64,000 nucleotides of DNA. Origin: Gordonibacter sp. An230. GTDB lineage: Bacteria; Actinomycetota; Coriobacteriia; Coriobacteriales; Eggerthellaceae. A program made the position numbers and the translations under genes. This document shows positions 1 to 25,358 of the stretch, piece after piece (the stretch's first letter is position 1; each line of letters begins with the position of its first letter). The notes beneath the pieces were generated by a model. The model searched no databases. It had not been told where the DNA came from and saw only the letters and a program-made list of their open reading frames with translations. Location of the stretch: assembly GCF_002159915.1 (NCBI RefSeq), contig NZ_NFJP01000017.1:1-64000 (forward strand), written 5' to 3'.

Positions 1-35
1 CGGTCTCGTGGGGTCGGGTTGTGTATAAGAGACAG
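1..35 (+). other. Sequencing transposon adapter remnant
   Basis: Bases 3-35 closely match the 34-base Nextera read-2 transposase adapter. The last 16 bases (TGTGTATAAGAGACAG) match the mosaic end exactly, and the first 8-10 bases match the adapter 5' part, with a few substitutions and one missing base between. This is probably untrimmed library sequence at a contig end, not genome sequence. Confidence 0.85.
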
Positions 36-665: not shown

Positions 666-1352
666 TCAAACCAAAGCGTACTTGCGCTTCACGCGATCGA
701 GCTTTCTCTTCCACGGAGCGTAGAGCATGGCAAGGAAGAAGGAGGTCGACAGTCCGTGAACGACGTCGAACGGCAGGGCGGCGGCGTACACGAGCGCGGC
801 TTGGGCCAGCGTCTGCGGATGGTAAAAGCCGATGATGCTCCACAGATTCAGCACGAGGCCGTACAGGATGCCGGACAGAAATCCAAAGCCGAGCAGAACC
901 GGTGTGCGGCCGAACGCGCCCACGGCCGCGAGAACCCCGCCAAGATAGCCTGTGAGCCCCCACGCGTACATCTGCCACGGCGTCCACGGCCCCTGCCCGA
1001 AGAAGAAGTTCGACGCCAGCGCCGCGAGCGCCCCCACCAAAAAGCCGCTGCGACGGCCGAACACCGCCCCGGCGACGATGGCGATGGCCGCCACCGGCTT
1101 GAAGCTGGGGATGGGCGCGAACAGAATGCGTCCCGCCGCCCCCAGCGCGGCCAGCACCGCCACCGGCATGGTGTCGCGCAGCCGCGGACGGCCCTTCTCG
1201 TATCCTGCGAAGAACAGCAAAAGCGAAAGCACGACCACCGCCATGCTGAGCAGAGCCGCCTGCTCCACTCCCGCGACCGCGCACGCCGCGAGCGCCGCCG
1301 GCACCGCGCCGACAGCCGCCGCCTCCACAATATGAGATGCGATCCGCCCCAT
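666..1352 (-). CDS. ECF transporter S component, probably for a corrinoid
   Basis: This 228-residue, almost entirely hydrophobic protein has about six membrane segments and a basic C-terminus (WKRKLDRVKRKYALV). The central part (FGQGPWTPWQMYAWGLTGYLGG, residues about 118-139) resembles CbrT-like S components, the substrate-binding subunit of energy-coupling-factor vitamin importers. It is the last gene of the operon and starts 10 bases after the ATPase stop. Substrate assignment is inference: the operon begins with a cobalamin riboswitch and two DUF4430 (transcobalamin C-terminal-like) proteins. A different vitamin-like ligand cannot be excluded from this protein alone. Confidence 0.8.
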   Translation of the reverse strand: MGRIASHIVEAAAVGAVPAALAACAVAGVEQAALLSMAVVVLSLLLFFAGYEKGRPRLRDTMPVAVLAALGAAGRILFAPIPSFKPVAAIAIVAGAVFGRRSGFLVGALAALASNFFFGQGPWTPWQMYAWGLTGYLGGVLAAVGAFGRTPVLLGFGFLSGILYGLVLNLWSIIGFYHPQTLAQAALVYAAALPFDVVHGLSTSFFLAMLYAPWKRKLDRVKRKYALV

Positions 1353-1362
1353 GCGCCCCCCG

Positions 1363-3120
1363 TCAATCTATGAGCGCGAACAGGCGCGACGCGGCGCTGG
1401 GACGATACACGAGGTTGTTCGCGAAAAACGCCTCCGCAGGCTCGGTGCAGGCGGCCTCGCCGTCGAACAGCATCGTCACCTCGTCGGCAGCCACGTAGGC
1501 GAAGTCGAGGTCGTGCGTGACGAGAACCGCAGTGCGCCCCTCGTCGGCCAACGCGCGCAGCGTGCGCGCCATGTCGGCGCACGCCTGCGGGTCGAGGCCC
1601 TTCGTGGGCTCGTCGAGCAGAAGCAGCCGCGCGCCGGTGAGCAGAAGCTTCGCCAACGCGAGCATCTGCTGCTGGCCGCCGGAAAGGTCGTAGGGATGCA
1701 GGGTTTCACAGCCGTCGAGGCCGAAGCGGGAGAGCATCGCCCTCTCGTCGTGGGGCGCCCAACCGCAGCGGGCGCGCCATTCGGCCAGCTCTTCGGCCAC
1801 GCTGTCGCACACGAGCAGCGCCTTGGGATCCTGCGGCAGAAGCGCCTGCGAACGCGCGAGCGCGTTTCCCACCCGGCCGCGCTGGGGCTTCTCCACACCC
1901 GCCATGAGTTTGAGCAGGGTGGACTTCCCGCAGCCGTTGCCACCCACCACGGCGTGCACGCTGCCGCGGCGCACCGCGAGATCGAGCCCGCGCAGCACCC
2001 ACGGCTCGCCGCGACCGTAGCGGAAATGCGCGCCGCGCACGACGAGGCAGGGCTCGCTCGCCGCCAGCGCCTCGGCGCGGGCGCGCCAGCGCGGGCGCAG
2101 CCGCTCGCACGCCACGGCGCAGGGCGCGGGGGCGAGCGGCGCGCCCAGCTCGAGGCGGCAGGTGGCGCAGCCGGCCACGTCCTCGGGCGCATGCGTGGAC
2201 ATCACCACCGTGACGCCCAGGTCGCGGTTCACGCGGGCCAAAAGCGCGATGAACTGGCTTTGGGCGTTCGGGTCAAGCTGGGCCGTTGGCTCGTCGAGCA
2301 GAAGCAGCCGCGGGCGCAGCGCAAGGGCGGCCGCGAGGTTCACGATCTGTTTCTGCCCGCCCGACAGCGTCTCGCACGCGGCGTGCAGCCACGGCTCGAT
2401 GCCGAAAAAGTGAGCCGCCTCGGCCACGCGGCGGCGCATCTCGTCCTGCGGCGTGCCGAGGTTCTCCAACCCGAACGCCAGCTCGTGCAGCACGGTGTCG
2501 CACACCAGCTGCGCGTCGGGGTCCTGCATGACGAAGCCGATCTGCGCGGCGCGGATGCGGGGGTCGGGGGCGGAAGCGGCAGAGGCGGCCTTGGGGAGAG
2601 GAGCGGCCTGCGCCGCGGAAACGTGACCGCAAGCGCGAGGATCGAAGGCGGGAGCGGAGGCTGCGGAGGGGGCCTTGGCGCGATCTGCGGCTGCGTACGG
2701 GCATTCCTCGGCAGACGGCGCGTCGAGCAGCACCTGCCCGCACGCCTCGATGCGGCCCGCGCGCACGCCAACCGGAGCCAGCTCGGGCTTGAGCGAACGC
2801 AGAAGCGTGGTCTTGCCGCAGCCCGTCGGCCCCGTCACCACGCAGAACGCGCCCTCCTTAACCGCAAACGACACATCGCGCAGCACCGGTCGCAGCGAGC
2901 CGTCGGGCTCCTCGTAGGAGAACGAGAAGCCCGCCACGCGAACGAGAGGGGCTTCAGGCGCCGAAGCCGTCTCTTCCACCGAAGCTGTCTCACCCGCGAA
3001 GGAGGCTTCGAATTCCACGCCCGCCGCTTCTGCCGCGGGAAGCTTTGCCCCCGCCGCAAGCGCCGCCGCCCCTGCGACCGCATGCGCGCCCGCACCCCTC
3101 CGCGCCGTCACTTCCGCCAT
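1363..3120 (-). CDS. Fused double ABC ATPase of an ECF transporter
   Basis: This 585-residue protein carries two complete ABC nucleotide-binding domains in tandem, replacing the usual EcfA1/EcfA2 pair. Domain 1 has Walker A GPTGCGKTT, signature LSGGQKQ and Walker B LLLLDEPTAQLD. Domain 2 has GGNGCGKST, LSGGQQQ and LLLLDEPTKGLD. Domain 1 contains an Ala/Pro-rich insertion of about 50 residues between Walker A and the Q-loop (IGFVMQDPDAQ). The chosen ATG has a GAGGGAG ribosome site and overlaps the EcfT gene by 13 bases, so the two are probably translationally coupled. It powers uptake through the S component encoded just downstream. Confidence 0.88.
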   Translation of the reverse strand: MAEVTARRGAGAHAVAGAAALAAGAKLPAAEAAGVEFEASFAGETASVEETASAPEAPLVRVAGFSFSYEEPDGSLRPVLRDVSFAVKEGAFCVVTGPTGCGKTTLLRSLKPELAPVGVRAGRIEACGQVLLDAPSAEECPYAAADRAKAPSAASAPAFDPRACGHVSAAQAAPLPKAASAASAPDPRIRAAQIGFVMQDPDAQLVCDTVLHELAFGLENLGTPQDEMRRRVAEAAHFFGIEPWLHAACETLSGGQKQIVNLAAALALRPRLLLLDEPTAQLDPNAQSQFIALLARVNRDLGVTVVMSTHAPEDVAGCATCRLELGAPLAPAPCAVACERLRPRWRARAEALAASEPCLVVRGAHFRYGRGEPWVLRGLDLAVRRGSVHAVVGGNGCGKSTLLKLMAGVEKPQRGRVGNALARSQALLPQDPKALLVCDSVAEELAEWRARCGWAPHDERAMLSRFGLDGCETLHPYDLSGGQQQMLALAKLLLTGARLLLLDEPTKGLDPQACADMARTLRALADEGRTAVLVTHDLDFAYVAADEVTMLFDGEAACTEPAEAFFANNLVYRPSAASRLFALID

Positions 3121-3965
3121 AGCCACCACTCCCTCGCCCGCAGCATGATCGGCACCGCCAACAGAAGCGCGTACGCGCCGTAACCCCACCACGGCACGAG
3201 CGCGCTCAGCGCGGGGTAGAACCGGAACTGCCCGCACGCCACAAACGCCAACGCGGCGTTCGCCACCACCAGCGCGACGACGGTCCCCGCAAGCGCCGCG
3301 TCCACCGCTCCGAAGCGGTAGCGCCGGTAGGTGGTGCGCCGCACGCCGCAATCGTAGCCGCGCGCGCGCATGGCATCGCTGCGGATGAGGCCGTCCTCCA
3401 TTCCCCATCCCATCAGCACCGACGTCACGCGCAGCCGACCGCGAGCCCGTTCGCGCGCCGTGGCGGGCGCGGCGGCGCTCGCGGCGTCCTGCACAGCAGC
3501 CACGATGCGCCCGCGCCGCACGAACTGCGGTACGAGGCGCATGACCTGCGAAACCATGAGCGTCGTCGTCGGCAGCGCGCGCCCGAACAGCGCGAGCGTG
3601 TCCTCGCTTCCCATGCACACTGCATACGACGAGAACCACAGCAGCACGCTGGCCAGCATCCCGCCTGCGACGAGGCCGTATGCAAGCGCCTCCACGTACA
3701 CCGCGCGCGTGCCGACGCGCACGATCTCGGTGGATCCCGATGCCACGAACAGGCAGTTCGCCGCAGCCACCACGGCAACGAGCGGCACGGCCCATGCAAG
3801 GGCGCGCAGCGCCGCCCGCCCGCCGCGCACCGCCGCGAGGCAGCCGAGCGCGCCCGCGCACGACAACGCCACGTACACGGGATGCATCGCCGCCATCGAC
3901 AACGCGATGACGCCCGCGAAGAACGCGAACGCCACCGCCGGATGCCATGCCGCAAAGGGGTTCAC
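3108..3965 (-). CDS. ecfT: ECF transporter transmembrane component T
   Basis: This 285-residue membrane protein couples ATP hydrolysis to movement of the S component. It has membrane segments at both ends and a central cytoplasmic coupling region with the family-typical SDAMRARGY motif. The GTG start at 3965 is preferred because a GGGAGG ribosome site lies just upstream; ATG codons further in would remove the first membrane helix. It lies between the small DUF4430 gene and the fused ATPase, with short gap and overlap, so it serves this operon rather than the riboflavin system near 24 kb, which has its own EcfT. Confidence 0.88.
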   Translation of the reverse strand: MNPFAAWHPAVAFAFFAGVIALSMAAMHPVYVALSCAGALGCLAAVRGGRAALRALAWAVPLVAVVAAANCLFVASGSTEIVRVGTRAVYVEALAYGLVAGGMLASVLLWFSSYAVCMGSEDTLALFGRALPTTTLMVSQVMRLVPQFVRRGRIVAAVQDAASAAAPATARERARGRLRVTSVLMGWGMEDGLIRSDAMRARGYDCGVRRTTYRRYRFGAVDAALAGTVVALVVANAALAFVACGQFRFYPALSALVPWWGYGAYALLLAVPIMLRAREWWLWRK

Positions 3966-3984
3966 TCGCCGCCTCCCGAAGATC

Positions 3985-4878
3985 CTACAGGCCCTCGCTC
4001 GAAGAGAGCACGTACTTCCATACAATGGAGTCGCCGTCAGAAAGCACGTAGGCGTTGCAGCCGTAACCAGGCTCGGCCCCGTTGACGAAGTACTTCCAAC
4101 CGCTGCCGGGATAGCCGGCATGCCTCTCGGCAAGCCCGCCGATGGAAGACACGTACAACGAGCCCAGGAGCGGGTTCCACTGGGTGGCGAGCGCAAGCCC
4201 CGTCCCGCAGAGCGCATCGTACACCGTGGCGCCCTCCTCGAACGAGAGCGTGCCGGAATACGACACCGGCGAGCCGACGTTGCCGGAATCCACGGAGATG
4301 CGCACGGCGACGGAGGCCGCCGGCTCCGCTGCGCCTCCACCCGCCCCGTCCAAGCCTGCGCCGCCGTCGGACGAAGGGCCGCCGGAACCGGAGGCGGGCG
4401 AAGGCTGCCCGCCGTCCGCGGACTGCGGCGCATCGACGCCGTGTTCGGCCGGGACGGCACCGGCAGAATCGGGGGCAGCGCCTTTATCGTCGGCGCCGGC
4501 AGACGCCGGATCCTCGACCGCTCCTCCGTCTTCAACGTTGCCTGCGGCGACGTCCGTGCCCTCGACGCCTGCGTCGGCAGACGGCGTGGGAGCCTCCGCG
4601 ACCTCCGCCGTCGTTTGCAATGCCGCCGACCAATCGGATACGGTCGGTGGCTCTCCGAAGAGCGCCCCAACGGAGAAAACGATGATCAGGGCAGACGCCG
4701 CAGCAACAGCGCCTGCGGCGATGCGCTTCCGCGCGCTTGGCATGCGACGGGCGACACAGGGAGCCCCCTGCGGACACGACCCGATGTCGGTCGAAGAGCC
4801 TTCCTCGCCCCGCATCGGGAGATCGCCCACTGAAAGCGCTGCGGCAGCGGCTGAATCTTTGCGGTCCCCGTGCGTCAT
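3985..4878 (-). CDS. Membrane-anchored DUF4430 protein
   Basis: This 297-residue protein has a cytoplasmic N-terminus of about 45 residues, one membrane segment (about 53-75, RKRIAAGAVAAASALIIVFS), a long Ser/Ala/Pro/Gly-rich linker and a C-terminal DUF4430 domain (last about 115 residues, ending KYVLSSSEGL). DUF4430 resembles the C-terminal corrinoid-binding domain of transcobalamin. Its ATG overlaps the upstream gene's TGA (ATGA at 4875-4878) and has a GGAGGGG ribosome site. Topology and context suggest that it hands ligand from the larger capture protein to the ECF transporter; that role is inference. Confidence 0.75.
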   Translation of the reverse strand: MTHGDRKDSAAAAALSVGDLPMRGEEGSSTDIGSCPQGAPCVARRMPSARKRIAAGAVAAASALIIVFSVGALFGEPPTVSDWSAALQTTAEVAEAPTPSADAGVEGTDVAAGNVEDGGAVEDPASAGADDKGAAPDSAGAVPAEHGVDAPQSADGGQPSPASGSGGPSSDGGAGLDGAGGGAAEPAASVAVRISVDSGNVGSPVSYSGTLSFEEGATVYDALCGTGLALATQWNPLLGSLYVSSIGGLAERHAGYPGSGWKYFVNGAEPGYGCNAYVLSDGDSIVWKYVLSSSEGL

Positions 4879-7800
4879 CGCGCCCCTCCTTCCCCGCTCC
4901 CACGCTGCGCGCGCACGAACCACGCAAGGGAAGCGGCGAGCCCGCACGCGCCGACGGCGATGCCAGCCACTGGCAGCCAAGGAATCCCCCTTTCTTCTCG
5001 AGGCGCTCCTCCGTCCTCCTCCGAGGCGACCGCGACGCGCCCGGAGCCGTTCGCGCCGTCGCGGGGCTCCATCGAAAGCGCCGCGACCTCGGACGACGCC
5101 TCCTCGTCAGGGACCTCCTCTTCGGGCGCATCCTCGAAAGCCTCCTCCTCGACCGCATCCCGTGCGTCACCTGGAGAAAGAGGCCGTTTCGACGGGGGCG
5201 CGGCAGCGAAGGCGCCTCGATCGCGGGGATCCGCCTCTTCGTCCGCACCGCCGCCTCCCGCGTCGCCTACCGGCGGATTCGAGCCGTCCGGGCCCAAGGG
5301 GCCATCCCCTCCGTCGCCCTCTCCGCCCGTCGCGGCCGCCCCCACAGCGAAGAGAGCGCCGGAATCGTTCACGTAGTACAGCATGCCGTCGGAGCCGCAA
5401 ACGATCGAGGACATCGAATATTGGGCATGGTCGGCATCGGGCTCGTACATGAGCTGGGCCGATGCGTCGCCCACCCGGTAGCGGTAGATGCCGCCGGGCC
5501 TGGCGTTGCAGGTGAAGTAGACGTAGGTTCCGTCGTCCTGCGTCGACACGAGCGGAGCGGACTTCGAATCGCCCGGCAACGGCACGGCCTCCTCGCCGTA
5601 CGTCAGAACCTCGTGTTCGAGCGCGAGAGACTCCTCGTCGATGACGGCCAGCACACCGCCGTACGTCACGTACCCCCATTCGTTTTCGACGCCTTCCCGC
5701 GACGCGCCGCCCGCGTACACCTTGCCGTTCGCCACCGTGGGGGTGGAGGTGCTCGACGAGCCGAACTTCACCCGGCCCTCCTCGGAAAGCGCGCCGGTGC
5801 GCGCGTCCACCAGCACCTTGTGCAGCACGCCATCCGAGGTGACGACGAACACGGTGCCCTCCCGCGAGCCTGCCACTGCGGTCGAGCGAACGGGAGCGCC
5901 CATATCGAGGAGCCCCACGGTCTCGCCCGACGCGGCGTCGCTGACGGTCAGCGCGCCGGCGTCGTCTCCTATAACCGCCCAATCGCCGACAAACACGGCG
6001 CCGGCCCAGTAATAGCCCGCCTCCTCGTTTCGCCGCTGCCACAGAATAGAGCCGTCCGCCAAGCTCACGCACGTAAGATACCCGTTGTACGACTCGCCCG
6101 ACCAGCCCGCCGAAGCCGTGCCGAACACGACGCGCCCCTCGTCCACCGCAAGCGAGGACAGCGCCTGCTGCGTCCCCGTATCGTCGATGGGCGCCAACTC
6201 GGCGGTGACCCACACGGTGGCCAAAGCATCGGCCGTGAGCGCCTGAAGGCGACCGCCCGACAGCGGCACCACCACGATGCCGTCCGCGTACACCATGCGC
6301 GCCACGGAGTCGATGGGCGCGGCCAGCGCCGCGACGCCCACGCGCGCACCGGTCGCGGCGTCGAACGCGCGCAGCTGGCGACCCACCGCCACGTACACCC
6401 GCCCGTTCACGACGAGGGGGTCCGAGACGTACGTGCTGTAGTCGGAGGGGTCCTTCAAGTCGGACACCCACGCCTCCTGCGCGTCCCCTGCGGGCGTGGG
6501 AGCCTGCGTGGCTGCCGCACCGGAAGCGAACCCCGGCCAGAACGCCTCCCAATCGGGACGCGGGGCATCCGGGCTGACGACGATGCCGTCCTCGTTGGGA
6601 AGGCCTTCGCCGAAAGCCGCGTGGTACCACGTCACCGCATCACCCGGGCGAAGCGCGTAGCCGTCGGCGTAGGAGCCGCACGGCTCGCCGTTCACGAGCA
6701 GCCGCCAATACCGCCACGCACCCCCCTCTTGCACCGTCCCCAGCGTGAGGCCGTCGTCGTACGGCGAGGTGACGGCATCGAGCGACCAGCCCCATTCGGT
6801 CTGGCTCGCCCGGTAGCCAAGACCTTCCTTCGCGAACAGCAGCTTCGTGAGGTCGGCAACCGTCGATCCCTCGACAAGCGCCGTCTCGGCAGAGGCGAGC
6901 CACGTCTGCGCGACGCCGTCCGCATCCCGGCCGATCACCTGCAAGGACGCCTTCACCTGCCCGGGAAGCGTCCCGTCGGCGCCGTAGCACCATGTCACCA
7001 CGTCGCCCGGCTGAAGCGCGCAGGCATCGGCGCCCACCTCCGCCATCTTCCCGTTCACGAAAAGCTGCCAGAACGCGCCCGTCTGCGCGTCCCACGACAG
7101 CTTCACGTCGGGATCGAGGGGCGAAGTCACCTCGTTGAGCATCCAATAACCCTGCTCATCAGGGGTGACAATGTCCGCCTCGATGCCTTCCTGCGCGAAA
7201 AGCTCCTCTGTGAGGTCGGCGGCCGTGGACCCTTGCGGCAAGGAGATCGACGCCTCGGGCAGCCATGTCTGGGAAACGCCGCGCGCATCCTGCCCCACGA
7301 GCGAAAGGGAAACGGACATCTCGGCGGCCGGAGGCTCCTCGCCCGATACGGAGTAGAACCACACGACGGCATCGCCTGCGGAAAGCTCGCGCTTATGCAA
7401 GTAAGGATCGTATTGGTCGACCTCGACGCCGTTGACGAACACGTGCCATCTCTCGCCCGTGTCGAAGTCGGTTCCGAGCACGAGGTCGTCGTCGAACGGA
7501 GAGGTGATGCTGTTCACCTGCCAGCTCGATCCCGAGGAAGGGGCGAAAACGTTCGCCTCGATGCCATTCGCCTCGAACATCGCCTCGGTGAGATCCGCCA
7601 CCGAGGCGCCCGCATCCAGCGTGTACGAGCGCGGCGCAGCCCACGTCTCGACGCCGCCCTCGGCATCGCGCCCGACAAGCGAGGCCGTCGCCGAGACCTC
7701 TGACGCCTCCGCACCGCCCGATGCGGCTTCCGCAGCCTCCGACGGCTTCGCGGGCTCGCCCGCGAGCGGCGAGGGCCCATCAGGAGAAGCTACGTCCGCG

Positions 7801-8174
7801 CCCGAAGAAGGTTCCCCCTCAGCGCCTCCCGCGGCGGCGCACCCCCACGCTTCGTCCGAGACGGGAGCTTCGACGCCGGAGACGGTCCCATCGGAAACCC
7901 CGGGGCCATCGGCGGCCGCGACCGCCTCGCCTCCGGTCGGACGAACGCCGCCCTCGGCGGAAGCTCGTTCGTCCGCCACGGAAGTCTCGGAGGCAGCGGA
8001 GGATCGTGACGGCGCGCCGTCATCAGGCGCACCCGCCTCGGCCCAAGCGGCGCTCGGAGCCAAGGAGACGGCGAGCGCGAAAGCAAGGAGCGCGGATGCT
8101 AGTTTTTCAGGGAAGCCCGCCCGTTTTCGGGCGTCGGAGCGCACGCGATCGCGCGCGAGGCAAGAACCGAGCAT
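4875..8174 (-). CDS. Exported protein with three DUF4430 domains, a beta-propeller and a C-terminal anchor
   Basis: This 1,099-residue protein is first in a five-gene operon. It has a signal peptide (about 1-46, ending SAAWA/EAG), a low-complexity acidic linker to about 160, three DUF4430 repeats (about 160-275, 285-397 and 407-520, each with LT..(L/M)F.. and a (F/L)VNG motif), a PQQ-like beta-propeller (about 565-975), another acidic linker, one membrane helix (about 1066-1088) and a basic tail. DUF4430 is related to the corrinoid-binding C-terminal domain of transcobalamin. With the cobalamin riboswitch upstream, the simplest reading is a cell-surface corrinoid-capturing receptor. The propeller's job is unknown. 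The ATG at 8174 is preferred over an upstream one inside the riboswitch. Confidence 0.85.
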   Translation of the reverse strand: MLGSCLARDRVRSDARKRAGFPEKLASALLAFALAVSLAPSAAWAEAGAPDDGAPSRSSAASETSVADERASAEGGVRPTGGEAVAAADGPGVSDGTVSGVEAPVSDEAWGCAAAGGAEGEPSSGADVASPDGPSPLAGEPAKPSEAAEAASGGAEASEVSATASLVGRDAEGGVETWAAPRSYTLDAGASVADLTEAMFEANGIEANVFAPSSGSSWQVNSITSPFDDDLVLGTDFDTGERWHVFVNGVEVDQYDPYLHKRELSAGDAVVWFYSVSGEEPPAAEMSVSLSLVGQDARGVSQTWLPEASISLPQGSTAADLTEELFAQEGIEADIVTPDEQGYWMLNEVTSPLDPDVKLSWDAQTGAFWQLFVNGKMAEVGADACALQPGDVVTWCYGADGTLPGQVKASLQVIGRDADGVAQTWLASAETALVEGSTVADLTKLLFAKEGLGYRASQTEWGWSLDAVTSPYDDGLTLGTVQEGGAWRYWRLLVNGEPCGSYADGYALRPGDAVTWYHAAFGEGLPNEDGIVVSPDAPRPDWEAFWPGFASGAAATQAPTPAGDAQEAWVSDLKDPSDYSTYVSDPLVVNGRVYVAVGRQLRAFDAATGARVGVAALAAPIDSVARMVYADGIVVVPLSGGRLQALTADALATVWVTAELAPIDDTGTQQALSSLAVDEGRVVFGTASAGWSGESYNGYLTCVSLADGSILWQRRNEEAGYYWAGAVFVGDWAVIGDDAGALTVSDAASGETVGLLDMGAPVRSTAVAGSREGTVFVVTSDGVLHKVLVDARTGALSEEGRVKFGSSSTSTPTVANGKVYAGGASREGVENEWGYVTYGGVLAVIDEESLALEHEVLTYGEEAVPLPGDSKSAPLVSTQDDGTYVYFTCNARPGGIYRYRVGDASAQLMYEPDADHAQYSMSSIVCGSDGMLYYVNDSGALFAVGAAATGGEGDGGDGPLGPDGSNPPVGDAGGGGADEEADPRDRGAFAAAPPSKRPLSPGDARDAVEEEAFEDAPEEEVPDEEASSEVAALSMEPRDGANGSGRVAVASEEDGGAPREERGIPWLPVAGIAVGACGLAASLAWFVRAQRGSGEGGAR

Positions 8175-8194
8175 GGCCGGAACCTCTCTTTCCA

Positions 8195-8392
8195 GGGCTG
8201 AACGCGATGGATGGGCATTCCGACTTCGCTTCGTCCGAAGGGAGCCCCGCTGCATGGGCGGGGCGGCCTTCCCTCCGTCGGCGTTTACGGTTACTGGTAT
8301 AGCGCGGGATTCTCACCCGCATTCCCCCGAGGCCGCGGCGAGCCCGGCCCCGCGCCGTGCCCGGCGCAACCATCTGTGCCAATAGGTGTACC
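8195..8392 (-). ncRNA. Cobalamin riboswitch
   Basis: Read on the minus strand, the segment from about 8325 down to 8285 contains the hallmark core (GGGAAT...GGGTGAGAATCC...CAGTAACCGTAA). A B12-box-like element (GAAGTCGGAATGCCC) follows at about 8213-8227. A purine-rich stem region and a -10-like TAGAAT (8398-8403) lie upstream. It ends about 20 bases before the ATG of the triple-DUF4430 gene, so it may act on translation. It predicts repression of the whole capture-and-ECF operon when adenosylcobalamin or a similar corrinoid is plentiful. The exact ends are approximate. Confidence 0.85.
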
Positions 8393-23505: not shown

Positions 23506-23684
23506 GATTCTGTTTCAGGGCGAGGTGCAATTCCTCACTGGCGGTAATCCGGCCCGACCCCCGCGTCGGCGCCGCGAGTCCGCGACCTCGAACGGCACGT
23601 CTGGGAGTAGCCCCACCCGCGCCGCTTCGGGCTGATTCCGGTGAGATCCCGGAACCAACGGTATAGTCCGGATGGAAGAGGCAG
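23506..23684 (+). ncRNA. FMN riboswitch (RFN element)
   Basis: The conserved blocks appear in order: TTTCAGGGCGAGGTGCAATTC, CACTGGCGGTAATCC, GGTGAGATCCCGGAACC, and AACGGTATAGTCCGGATGGA followed by AGA. The element precedes a RibU-ECF operon and is followed by an intrinsic terminator at 23725-23759, so FMN should stop transcription before ribU. Confidence 0.93.
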
Positions 23685-23724
23685 AGATCCGCCAGGCGCC
23701 AGGCGTCTCGGCGGACCCCGTGTA

Positions 23725-23759
23725 AGCCTGTATGGATGGAATTCATACGGGCTCGTTTT
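23725..23759 (+). terminator. Riboswitch-controlled intrinsic terminator
   Basis: AGCCTGTATG (23725-23734) pairs with CATACGGGCT (23744-23753), giving ten pairs with one G-U. The run CGTTTT follows. It lies between the FMN aptamer and ribU, as expected for the off-state terminator. Confidence 0.8.
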
Positions 23760-23819
23760 CTCTCAAGGCCGGAAAACCTGACCCGAATCGGAGCGGGCCT
23801 TGCGAGAAAGGAGCCCATC

Positions 23820-24476
23820 ATGCAGAACGGCACGACACCGCGCGTCGGCAACGGAGGCAAAGCGCCAGGAGGCAACGAACCCTCGAAAGCCACCTCGGCC
23901 CCCTCTCCCTACAAGCTCTCCAACACAAACACCTGGGACACCCGTCAGCTCGTCACGATGGCCCTCATGTGCGCTATCGGAGTGCTGTTGTCGTTCATCG
24001 AGTTCCCGCTTCTGCCAGGCGTCACCTGGCTCAAATACGACGCTTCGGCCATGCCCGCCATGGTGTGCGGCTTCGCGTTCGGCCCGGCGGCGGGCCTTTC
24101 GGTGGGCGTCGTCGGGGCCGTCATCCACGGCATCCTCATGGCCGACTTCTCCGGAGCGCTTATGAACATCCTCGTGGTGACGGGTTTCGTCCTCCCGGCG
24201 GCGGCCGTCTACCGGCGCTCGCGCACGTTCAGAAGCGGCGCCGTCGGCCTCGCGCTGAGCGTCATCGCTGCCACGATCATGGCCATCTTGGGCAACCTGC
24301 TGGTCACGCCGGCATGGCTCGGCGTGCCCCTCGATGCCGTCATCGCCATGATCCTGCCTATCCTCACGCCGTTCAACCTGGCCAAAGGGGTGCTCAACGC
24401 CGTGCTCACCCTCGTCGTGTACAAGAGCGTGTCGAACCTCATCACGCCGAAGAAAAAGCAGGTCAAGGGACGCTAA
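23820..24476 (+). CDS. ribU: Riboflavin ECF transporter S component
   Basis: This 218-residue protein has a hydrophilic N-terminus of about 45 residues and about six membrane helices. RibU-like blocks include FPLLPGVTWLKYDASAMPAM and FGPAAGLSVG. It binds riboflavin (or FMN) outside and delivers it through the ECF motor encoded downstream. The ATG at 23820 has a GAAAGGAG site; an earlier ATG at 23736 lies inside the terminator hairpin and is unlikely. The FMN riboswitch supports the substrate assignment strongly. Confidence 0.93.
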   Translation: MQNGTTPRVGNGGKAPGGNEPSKATSAPSPYKLSNTNTWDTRQLVTMALMCAIGVLLSFIEFPLLPGVTWLKYDASAMPAMVCGFAFGPAAGLSVGVVGAVIHGILMADFSGALMNILVVTGFVLPAAAVYRRSRTFRSGAVGLALSVIAATIMAILGNLLVTPAWLGVPLDAVIAMILPILTPFNLAKGVLNAVLTLVVYKSVSNLITPKKKQVKGR

Positions 24477-24486
24477 GTCCCCGTAT

Positions 24487-24520
24487 CGCCGCCTGGCGTC
24501 TTGCGATATGCCAGGCGGCG
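24487..24520 (+). repeat. 11-bp inverted repeat between ribU and ecfA1
   Basis: CGCCGCCTGGC and its perfect complement GCCAGGCGGCG are separated by 12 bases. It ends 16 bases before the ecfA1 start, with no T-tract. It could adjust mRNA stability or ratio between the S component and the motor genes. Confidence 0.7.
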
Positions 24521-24536
24521 GGAACAGGATGCGCAC

Positions 24537-25358
24537 ATGATCGAGTTTGACAACGCGGGCTTCACTTACGATGGCGAGACATTCGTGCTCGACAGCGTGA
24601 CCGCGCGTATTGAGCAGGGCGAGTTCGTCTGCATACTCGGCGGCAACGGTTCGGGGAAATCCACCCTCGCCAAGCACGTCAACGCCTTGCTCTCGCCCGA
24701 CGAGGGCAGCGTGCGCGTGCTCGGACACGATACGCGCGACGAGGACAGCGTGTACTTCATCCGAAGCCAAGCCGGCATGGTGTTCCAAAACCCCGACGAT
24801 CAGCTGGTGGCCAGCCTCATCGAAAACGACGTGGCGTTCGGTCCGGAAAATCTGGGGGTGCCGACGAACGAGCTGCGCGAACGCGTTTCGGCAGCGCTGG
24901 CCGACGTGGGCCTGCAAGGTTTCGAGAAGCGCGAGACGGCAGCGCTTTCGGGCGGGCAGAAGCAGCGCGTGGCCATCGCAGGGGCCCTTGCCATGGAGCC
25001 GGCCATCCTCGTCCTGGACGAAGCCACGGCCATGCTCGACCCGCGCGGGCGCAAAGGCCTCATGCGCGTGTGCCGCACGCTGCACGAACGCGGCATGACC
25101 ATCGTCATGATCACTCATTTCATGGAGGAAGCCGCCCAGGCCGACCGCGTCATCGTGCTCGAAGGCGGGCACGTGGCCGCCGACGGCACGCCCGCCGATG
25201 TGCTCGTGCAGGCCGACCTGCTCAGGCGTCTGCACCTCGACGTGCCCTTCGCGTGCGCGCTGTCGTTTGCGCTCAAGCGCCGCGGGGTGGATGCGGGCGT
25301 CCACATCGAAACGACGAGCCTGAAGGAGGAGCTGTGCCGATTGCTTTCGAGGGCGTGA
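24537..25358 (+). CDS. ecfA1: ECF transporter ATPase A1
   Basis: This 273-residue ABC ATPase has Walker A GGNGSGKST, Q-loop VFQNPDDQ, signature LSGGQKQ and Walker B ILVLDEATAMLD. It pairs with the second ATPase downstream to drive EcfT. The ATG at 24537 gives the family-typical MIEFDNAGFTY start, but the ribosome site is weak (GGCGGGAACAGG). It comes 60 bases after ribU, behind a perfect hairpin, and overlaps the next gene by 25 bases. Confidence 0.93.
   Translation: MIEFDNAGFTYDGETFVLDSVTARIEQGEFVCILGGNGSGKSTLAKHVNALLSPDEGSVRVLGHDTRDEDSVYFIRSQAGMVFQNPDDQLVASLIENDVAFGPENLGVPTNELRERVSAALADVGLQGFEKRETAALSGGQKQRVAIAGALAMEPAILVLDEATAMLDPRGRKGLMRVCRTLHERGMTIVMITHFMEEAAQADRVIVLEGGHVAADGTPADVLVQADLLRRLHLDVPFACALSFALKRRGVDAGVHIETTSLKEELCRLLSRA

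Follow-up and report, generated by a model that had tools for sequence, protein, structure and literature searches.

The first 64,000 nucleotides of contig NZ_NFJP01000017.1 of Gordonibacter sp. An230 (assembly GCF_002159915.1; hereafter the window) very probably carry, judging from sequence and structural models, an operon for the acquisition of corrinoids (vitamin B12-type compounds), combining riboswitch-controlled surface capture with import by an energy-coupling factor (ECF) transporter. The operon lies on the minus strand and comprises five genes, encoding a propeller/DUF4430 protein (gene 1), a second DUF4430 protein (gene 2) and the T, ATPase (A) and substrate-specific (S) subunits of an ECF transporter (genes 3–5). 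The operon itself, the homology of the riboswitch, the conservation of the locus, the predicted fold of the gene 2 DUF4430 domain and the relationship of the S subunit were all computed; from the riboswitch, the conserved gene order, the CbrT-like S subunit, the DUF4430 fold and the probable B12 need of the host, we infer corrinoid capture and ECF import, a role that these features support well. A preliminary description of this DNA had proposed a Gram-positive surface trap for corrinoids under B12 control, and context and predicted fold lend this proposal good support; it had overlooked that the operon also encodes a second DUF4430 protein and an ECF transporter, the coordinates adopted there cutting off the remainder (666–4878).

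Gene 1 occupies an open frame at 4875–8255 (minus strand; 1126 codons counted from the first ATG). The most likely start is ATG 8174, which follows the Shine–Dalgarno sequence AGAGAGG and marks the limit of leader conservation, giving a protein of 1099 aa (4875–8174). ATG 8255 was rejected as the start because it is covered by the conserved riboswitch RNA. Reading of the sequence indicated a signal peptide with a long basic N-region ending in ...SAAWA (8040–8174) and, at the other end, an acidic linker followed by a C-terminal transmembrane anchor (4899–5330; WLPVAGIAVGACGLAASLAWFVRAQRG), consisting of a hydrophobic segment with a basic tail and resembling the tails of homologues; no LPXTG sorting motif was found in the protein. 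The signal peptide and anchor of the preliminary description were thus both recovered, the anchor being of the transmembrane type.

Three DUF4430 repeats had also been described. Pfam (PF14478, 66.5 bits against a cut-off of 23.8) called two stretches, repeat 2 (6975–7322) and repeat 3 (6606–6956); the divergent repeat 1 (7347–7700) received no Pfam call and was placed by its alignment to repeat 2 (42 % identity) and by AlphaFold secondary structure. AlphaFold structure prediction returned a model (57 aligned sequences; predicted local distance difference test score (pLDDT) 93.3) with three alpha/beta domains followed by a beta-propeller. The propeller matched Pfam weakly, and its conserved core (5331–6509) contains the motifs AGYYWAG, STSTP, YVYFTCN..PGG and LYYVNDSG. 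Its model and a fold search agree on a pyrroloquinoline quinone (PQQ)/BamB/YxaL-type propeller, as had been proposed, with YxaL (Z 41), BamB and eight-bladed designs as the best full-length matches; the solved Rv3035–FecB complex was also among the structural matches. BtuG and 3DSM were not among the matches listed, from which their exclusion does not follow. A role for the propeller as a PQQ quinoprotein dehydrogenase was rejected, the curated NCBIfam quinoprotein models scoring far under their cut-offs.

Directly upstream of gene 1 lies an element that, from its sequence, is a cobalamin-class riboswitch related to AdoCbl-II. Its core matches RF01689 at 8264–8335 (minus strand; 35.9 bits, E value 3.8e-7, Rfam searched with an E-value threshold), and this is the sole cobalamin riboswitch found in the genome, RF00174 having no match in it. 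The full element (8183–8374) is defined by the core match together with the conserved leader reaching the start codon; it opens with a putative P1 helix (GATGG 8374–8370 with CCATC 8214–8206) and runs up to the Shine–Dalgarno sequence (8189–8183). A conserved box, AGTCGGAAT..CC, belongs to the element and is not part of the Rfam core. When the leaders of 28 loci were aligned, the sequence past the Rfam core proved to hold the box AGTCGGAnnnCC, CCTGG, AGAGAGG and the start codon, all conserved, and the downstream box was found in 47 distinct leaders, Collinsella among them. The P5 helix showed covariation, with both partners of a pair altered in 11, 12 and 2 sequences. RNAalifold applied to the full leader returned the core helices and a CCTGG pairing of uncertain role, nothing more. 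The preliminary description had reported a cobalamin riboswitch 20 bases upstream of the gene; an RF01689-type element is present there, and the outer boundary given (8392) agrees with the full element, but ATG 8255, the first of the frame, sits inside it. The promoter scan found no sigma-70-like promoter, terminator-like matches were only modestly above those in shuffled sequences, and a c-di-GMP-II-GCG match on the opposite strand (18.4 against 47.9 bits) was rejected as chance. In two Gordonibacter loci, a tandem pair of cobalamin-type riboswitches precedes one propeller gene (L038, 13503–13982, and L041, 4156–4635), and in a genome of the same genus as the window (G089, L078:1545–2970) an additional AdoCbl-II-type riboswitch lies ahead of a gene for a radical SAM protein rather than an uptake gene.

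Gene 2 (3985–4878) encodes a protein with an N-terminal hydrophobic anchor and a single DUF4430 domain (about 3988–4317; PF14478, 49.6 bits against 23.8), and its start overlaps the stop of gene 1 through ATGA. The ECF genes follow. Gene 3 (3108–3965) is assigned to a probable CbiQ-like T subunit by its position, conserved in 28 of 40 loci, and by a clostridial homologue that matches Pfam CbiQ (E value 1e-7). Gene 4 (1363–3120) encodes an ECF ATPase with two ATP-binding cassette (ABC) domains (Pfam ABC_tran, two stretches; TIGR01166 cbiO over its cut-off), and gene 5 (666–1352) an S subunit (Pfam PF20221/PF07155), whose closest relative among solved structures is 6FNP, the CbrT of ECF-CbrT (phmmer E value 6e-6, residues 55–224).

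The predicted fold of the gene 2 domain (AlphaFold, pLDDT 93.8) points to the animal B12 carriers. All 19 Foldseek matches with E ≤ 0.001 were either transcobalamin, intrinsic factor or haptocorrin chains (E values 9e-6 to 5e-4) or 3U7Z, an uncharacterised Ruminococcus protein. The transcobalamin-type matches reached VIA Z values of 13.4–15.1, with other beta-grasp proteins next at 8.7, in agreement with the relationship of DUF4430 to the C-terminal domain of transcobalamin and intrinsic factor put forward in the preliminary description. They include 5NP4, a structure of the isolated human beta-domain with cyanocobalamin; this domain of human transcobalamin binds cobalamin on its own (PMC5599065). 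Profile comparison tied the gene 1 repeats to the gene 2 domain with 98 % probability. As regards the host, B12-binding domains are present and neither CbiC nor CobS has a match in its genome; it is therefore probably a B12 consumer that cannot synthesise B12.

The association of these genes recurs among relatives. The gene 1 propeller protein is present in 48 of 138 genomes of the family, RF01689 scores over its gathering score in 35 of the 138 related genomes, and the order propeller, DUF4430 protein, T, A, S is kept in 28 of the 40 regions fetched. For 37 of 44 propeller genes an RF01689 match lies no more than 12 kb upstream on the same strand; conversely, of the 105 RF01689 matches in the family, 77 stand in this relation to a DUF4430 or propeller match. 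With approximately one such locus per genome of approximately 2.4 Mb, we estimate that chance would account for fewer than one of these associations. When named genomes were scanned by pattern, the gene 1 protein alone brought up no relatives, while an alignment as query gave 80 loci, distributed over Eggerthella, Gordonibacter, Paraeggerthella, Slackia, Adlercreutzia, Raoultibacter, Collinsella, Olsenella, Atopobium and Clostridia. In the Clostridia (Oscillospiraceae and others), the propeller gene mostly lacks a fused DUF4430 repeat; a gene for a separate DUF4430 protein comes next in most loci, and T, A and S genes follow in several. Of nine clostridial loci, seven carry a canonical RF00174 cobalamin riboswitch (75–88 bits) 60–440 nt upstream of the propeller gene. 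As the same gene is preceded by two riboswitch families, this constitutes independent evidence for cobalamin control. In two Lachnospiraceae loci (L182 and L184), the propeller gene is divergent from the ECF/DUF4430 genes and does not form one operon with them.

Within gene 1 and its relatives, conservation is uneven. The number of fused DUF4430 repeats ranges from 0 to 5, and coverage by aligned sequences rises from approximately 21 % for repeat 1 through 52 % for repeat 2 and 77 % for repeat 3 to 94 % for the propeller, which also holds all invariant columns of alignments A1 and A2. The propeller is therefore the constant part of the protein and the repeats a variable array, so that the three repeats can be regarded as candidate binding units only. 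Judging from the usual order of propeller strands, the motifs AGYYWAG, STSTP and KSAPLVS would lie on one face near the central channel, at loops leading into the inner strands. That DUF4430 and the propeller are joined in one protein in Coriobacteriia speaks for the two parts working together. Three relatives of 2300–2950 aa (L043, L056 and L038) add atrophied Ig (aBig_2) and Listeria–Bacteroides repeats to the DUF4430/propeller core.

Several observations weigh against a corrinoid uptake operon. The riboswitch score of 35.9 bits falls 0.6 bits under the RF01689 gathering score of 36.5, and a search of the window at Rfam's own thresholds made no call at the gene 1 leader; yet the core is conserved, P5 covaries and the element stands before B12 genes, and we therefore class it as AdoCbl-II-related and not as a certified member of RF01689. 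Its single-sequence folding energy is not unusual (z −0.8), a measure that is uninformative here because the leader is GC-rich. DUF4430 sequence profiles, from either set, do not reach transcobalamin in the Protein Data Bank (PDB), and the homology is therefore argued from predicted structure. The high affinity of transcobalamin needs its alpha-barrel half, and Pfam found no alpha/alpha barrel domain in any of the five operon proteins. The window copy of the T subunit gives no Pfam match, and the B12 dependence of the host was judged from two markers, CbiC and CobS, in an assembly that is 96.7 % complete.

How the parts of gene 1 divide the work admits more than one reading. We think that the DUF4430 domains would grip the ligand and that the conserved propeller would act as a partner face or docking platform. 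The propeller might instead bind the corrinoid itself, as in Bacteroides BtuG, with the repeats, as spacers or avidity modules, raising it above the membrane. All invariant columns fall in the propeller while the repeat number varies from 0 to 5, clostridial versions keep a propeller without fused repeats, and BtuG, a beta-propeller, binds B12 at femtomolar affinity (PMC6143338); however, the nearest folds among the matches listed are eight-bladed PQQ/BamB/YxaL propellers as opposed to the seven-bladed BtuG, it is the DUF4430 fold that has proven cobalamin-binding relatives, and most loci, clostridial ones included, pair the propeller gene with a DUF4430 protein, making this reading unlikely. 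The propeller could also dock another protein without touching the ligand, for example the gene 2 protein, the ECF complex or a B12 carrier from host or diet. This is possible if on balance doubtful: BamB and Rv3035, of the same fold class, make protein contacts, and the Rv3035–FecB complex is among the matches, but the long conserved motifs fit either role. We also raise, as a tentative idea that we would not expect to hold, that the propeller replaces the alpha-barrel of transcobalamin, the corrinoid being clamped between a beta-grasp DUF4430 domain and the propeller face; if true, a new two-domain B12 clamp would here feed a transporter of the ECF type, in which the S subunit usually binds the substrate by itself.

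The ligand and the assignment to B12 uptake can be questioned as well. Incomplete corrinoids or other cobamides (cobinamide, pseudo-B12) could be the main substrates, with host enzymes finishing them or exchanging the lower ligand, and it is consistent with this that ECF-CbrT carries cobinamide too (PMC5997447) and that several corrinoids act on cobalamin riboswitches (PMC9600662); the genome has no CobS, hence no usual nucleotide-loop assembly, and we consider such a specialisation quite improbable. Chance proximity of the riboswitch and ECF genes to an adhesin unrelated to corrinoids appears extremely improbable: large multidomain relatives do bear adhesin-like repeats (aBig_2, Listeria–Bacteroides), but the association recurs over many genera with two different riboswitch families.

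Under corrinoid capture with ECF import, we propose the following scheme, in which the identity of the ligand, its hand-over, the direction of switching and the domain holding the corrinoid are our interpretation. At low intracellular cobalamin, the riboswitch would leave the ribosome-binding site free and the five proteins would be made. The membrane-anchored gene 1 protein, with its three DUF4430 repeats and propeller, and the gene 2 protein would then capture extracellular corrinoid and pass it on to the CbrT-like S subunit. S subunit, T subunit and double ATPase would together import it at the expense of ATP. Once cobalamin is plentiful, the riboswitch would close the Shine–Dalgarno region and turn the operon off.

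The preliminary description knew of no characterised protein with this order of domains. This holds for characterised proteins, but a DUF4430-type/propeller fusion and its function were predicted in 2007. Burroughs et al. described a transcobalamin-like SLBB domain in secreted and anchored proteins of Gram-positive bacteria, fused to a propeller in a Clostridium, occurring in paralogous pairs and having CbiO/CbiQ neighbours, and predicted surface B12 scavenging; fused domains such as the propeller were ascribed to surface tethering, and riboswitches were not mentioned (PMC1796856). The present operon shares the anchored transcobalamin-like beta-grasp domains, the propeller fusion, the second paralogue and the CbiO/CbiQ-like genes, but differs in its riboswitch, up to five tandem repeats, Coriobacteriia-wide distribution and CbrT-like S subunit, and its propeller is the most conserved part. 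The literature naming DUF4430 is sparse and, in the portions available, apparently none of it treats the function of a bacterial member. The general idea was thus predicted in 2007, and the conserved form with riboswitch and propeller has, as far as we found, not been described.

Among characterised systems, transcobalamin, intrinsic factor and haptocorrin share the predicted beta-domain fold with DUF4430, whereas the bacterial domains lack the alpha-barrel half, occur in tandem copies, are anchored to the cell and are only 14–24 % identical. ECF-CbrT of Lactobacillus delbrueckii (6FNP) has a related S subunit and related ATPases; there, the S subunit itself binds its substrates, cobalamin and cobinamide, with nanomolar Kd and uses a shared ECF module (PMC5997447), in contrast to the dedicated T, A and S subunits and two surface proteins of one operon seen here. 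Bacteroides BtuG, BtuH and DUF4465 proteins are likewise anchored surface capture proteins beside B12 transporters (PMC6143338, PMC8941943, PMC13398666), and BtuG is, like the core of gene 1, a beta-propeller, albeit apparently of a different class. Unlike these, the present system has no TonB-dependent channel, belongs to a Gram-positive envelope and fuses transcobalamin-like domains; BtuG is a lipoprotein beside BtuB, whereas gene 1 has a C-terminal transmembrane anchor and ECF neighbours.

Elsewhere in the window, an FMN riboswitch (23507–23687, plus strand; 91.9 bits) lies just before a probable ECF riboflavin S subunit (23736–24476), which is followed by an ECF ATPase (24501–25358), a separate, second ECF vitamin system. 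The contig end (window 1–35) starts with gtctcgtggggtcgggttgtgtataagagacag, resembling a Nextera transposase adapter, in a frame reading MCIRDR, and is probably a library adapter left in the assembly. A search for a plasmid origin returned no match.

This gene set, whole or in part, is found in many gut Coriobacteriia (Eggerthella, Gordonibacter, Collinsella, Slackia and Olsenella). There is competition for B12 in the gut, yet the literature searched yielded no characterised Gram-positive protein corresponding to the surface B12 binders of Bacteroides. The operon makes two ideas testable: that extracellular capture proteins serve ECF transporters and that, as proposed in 2007, the beta-domain of the animal B12 carriers descended from a bacterial B12-capture module.

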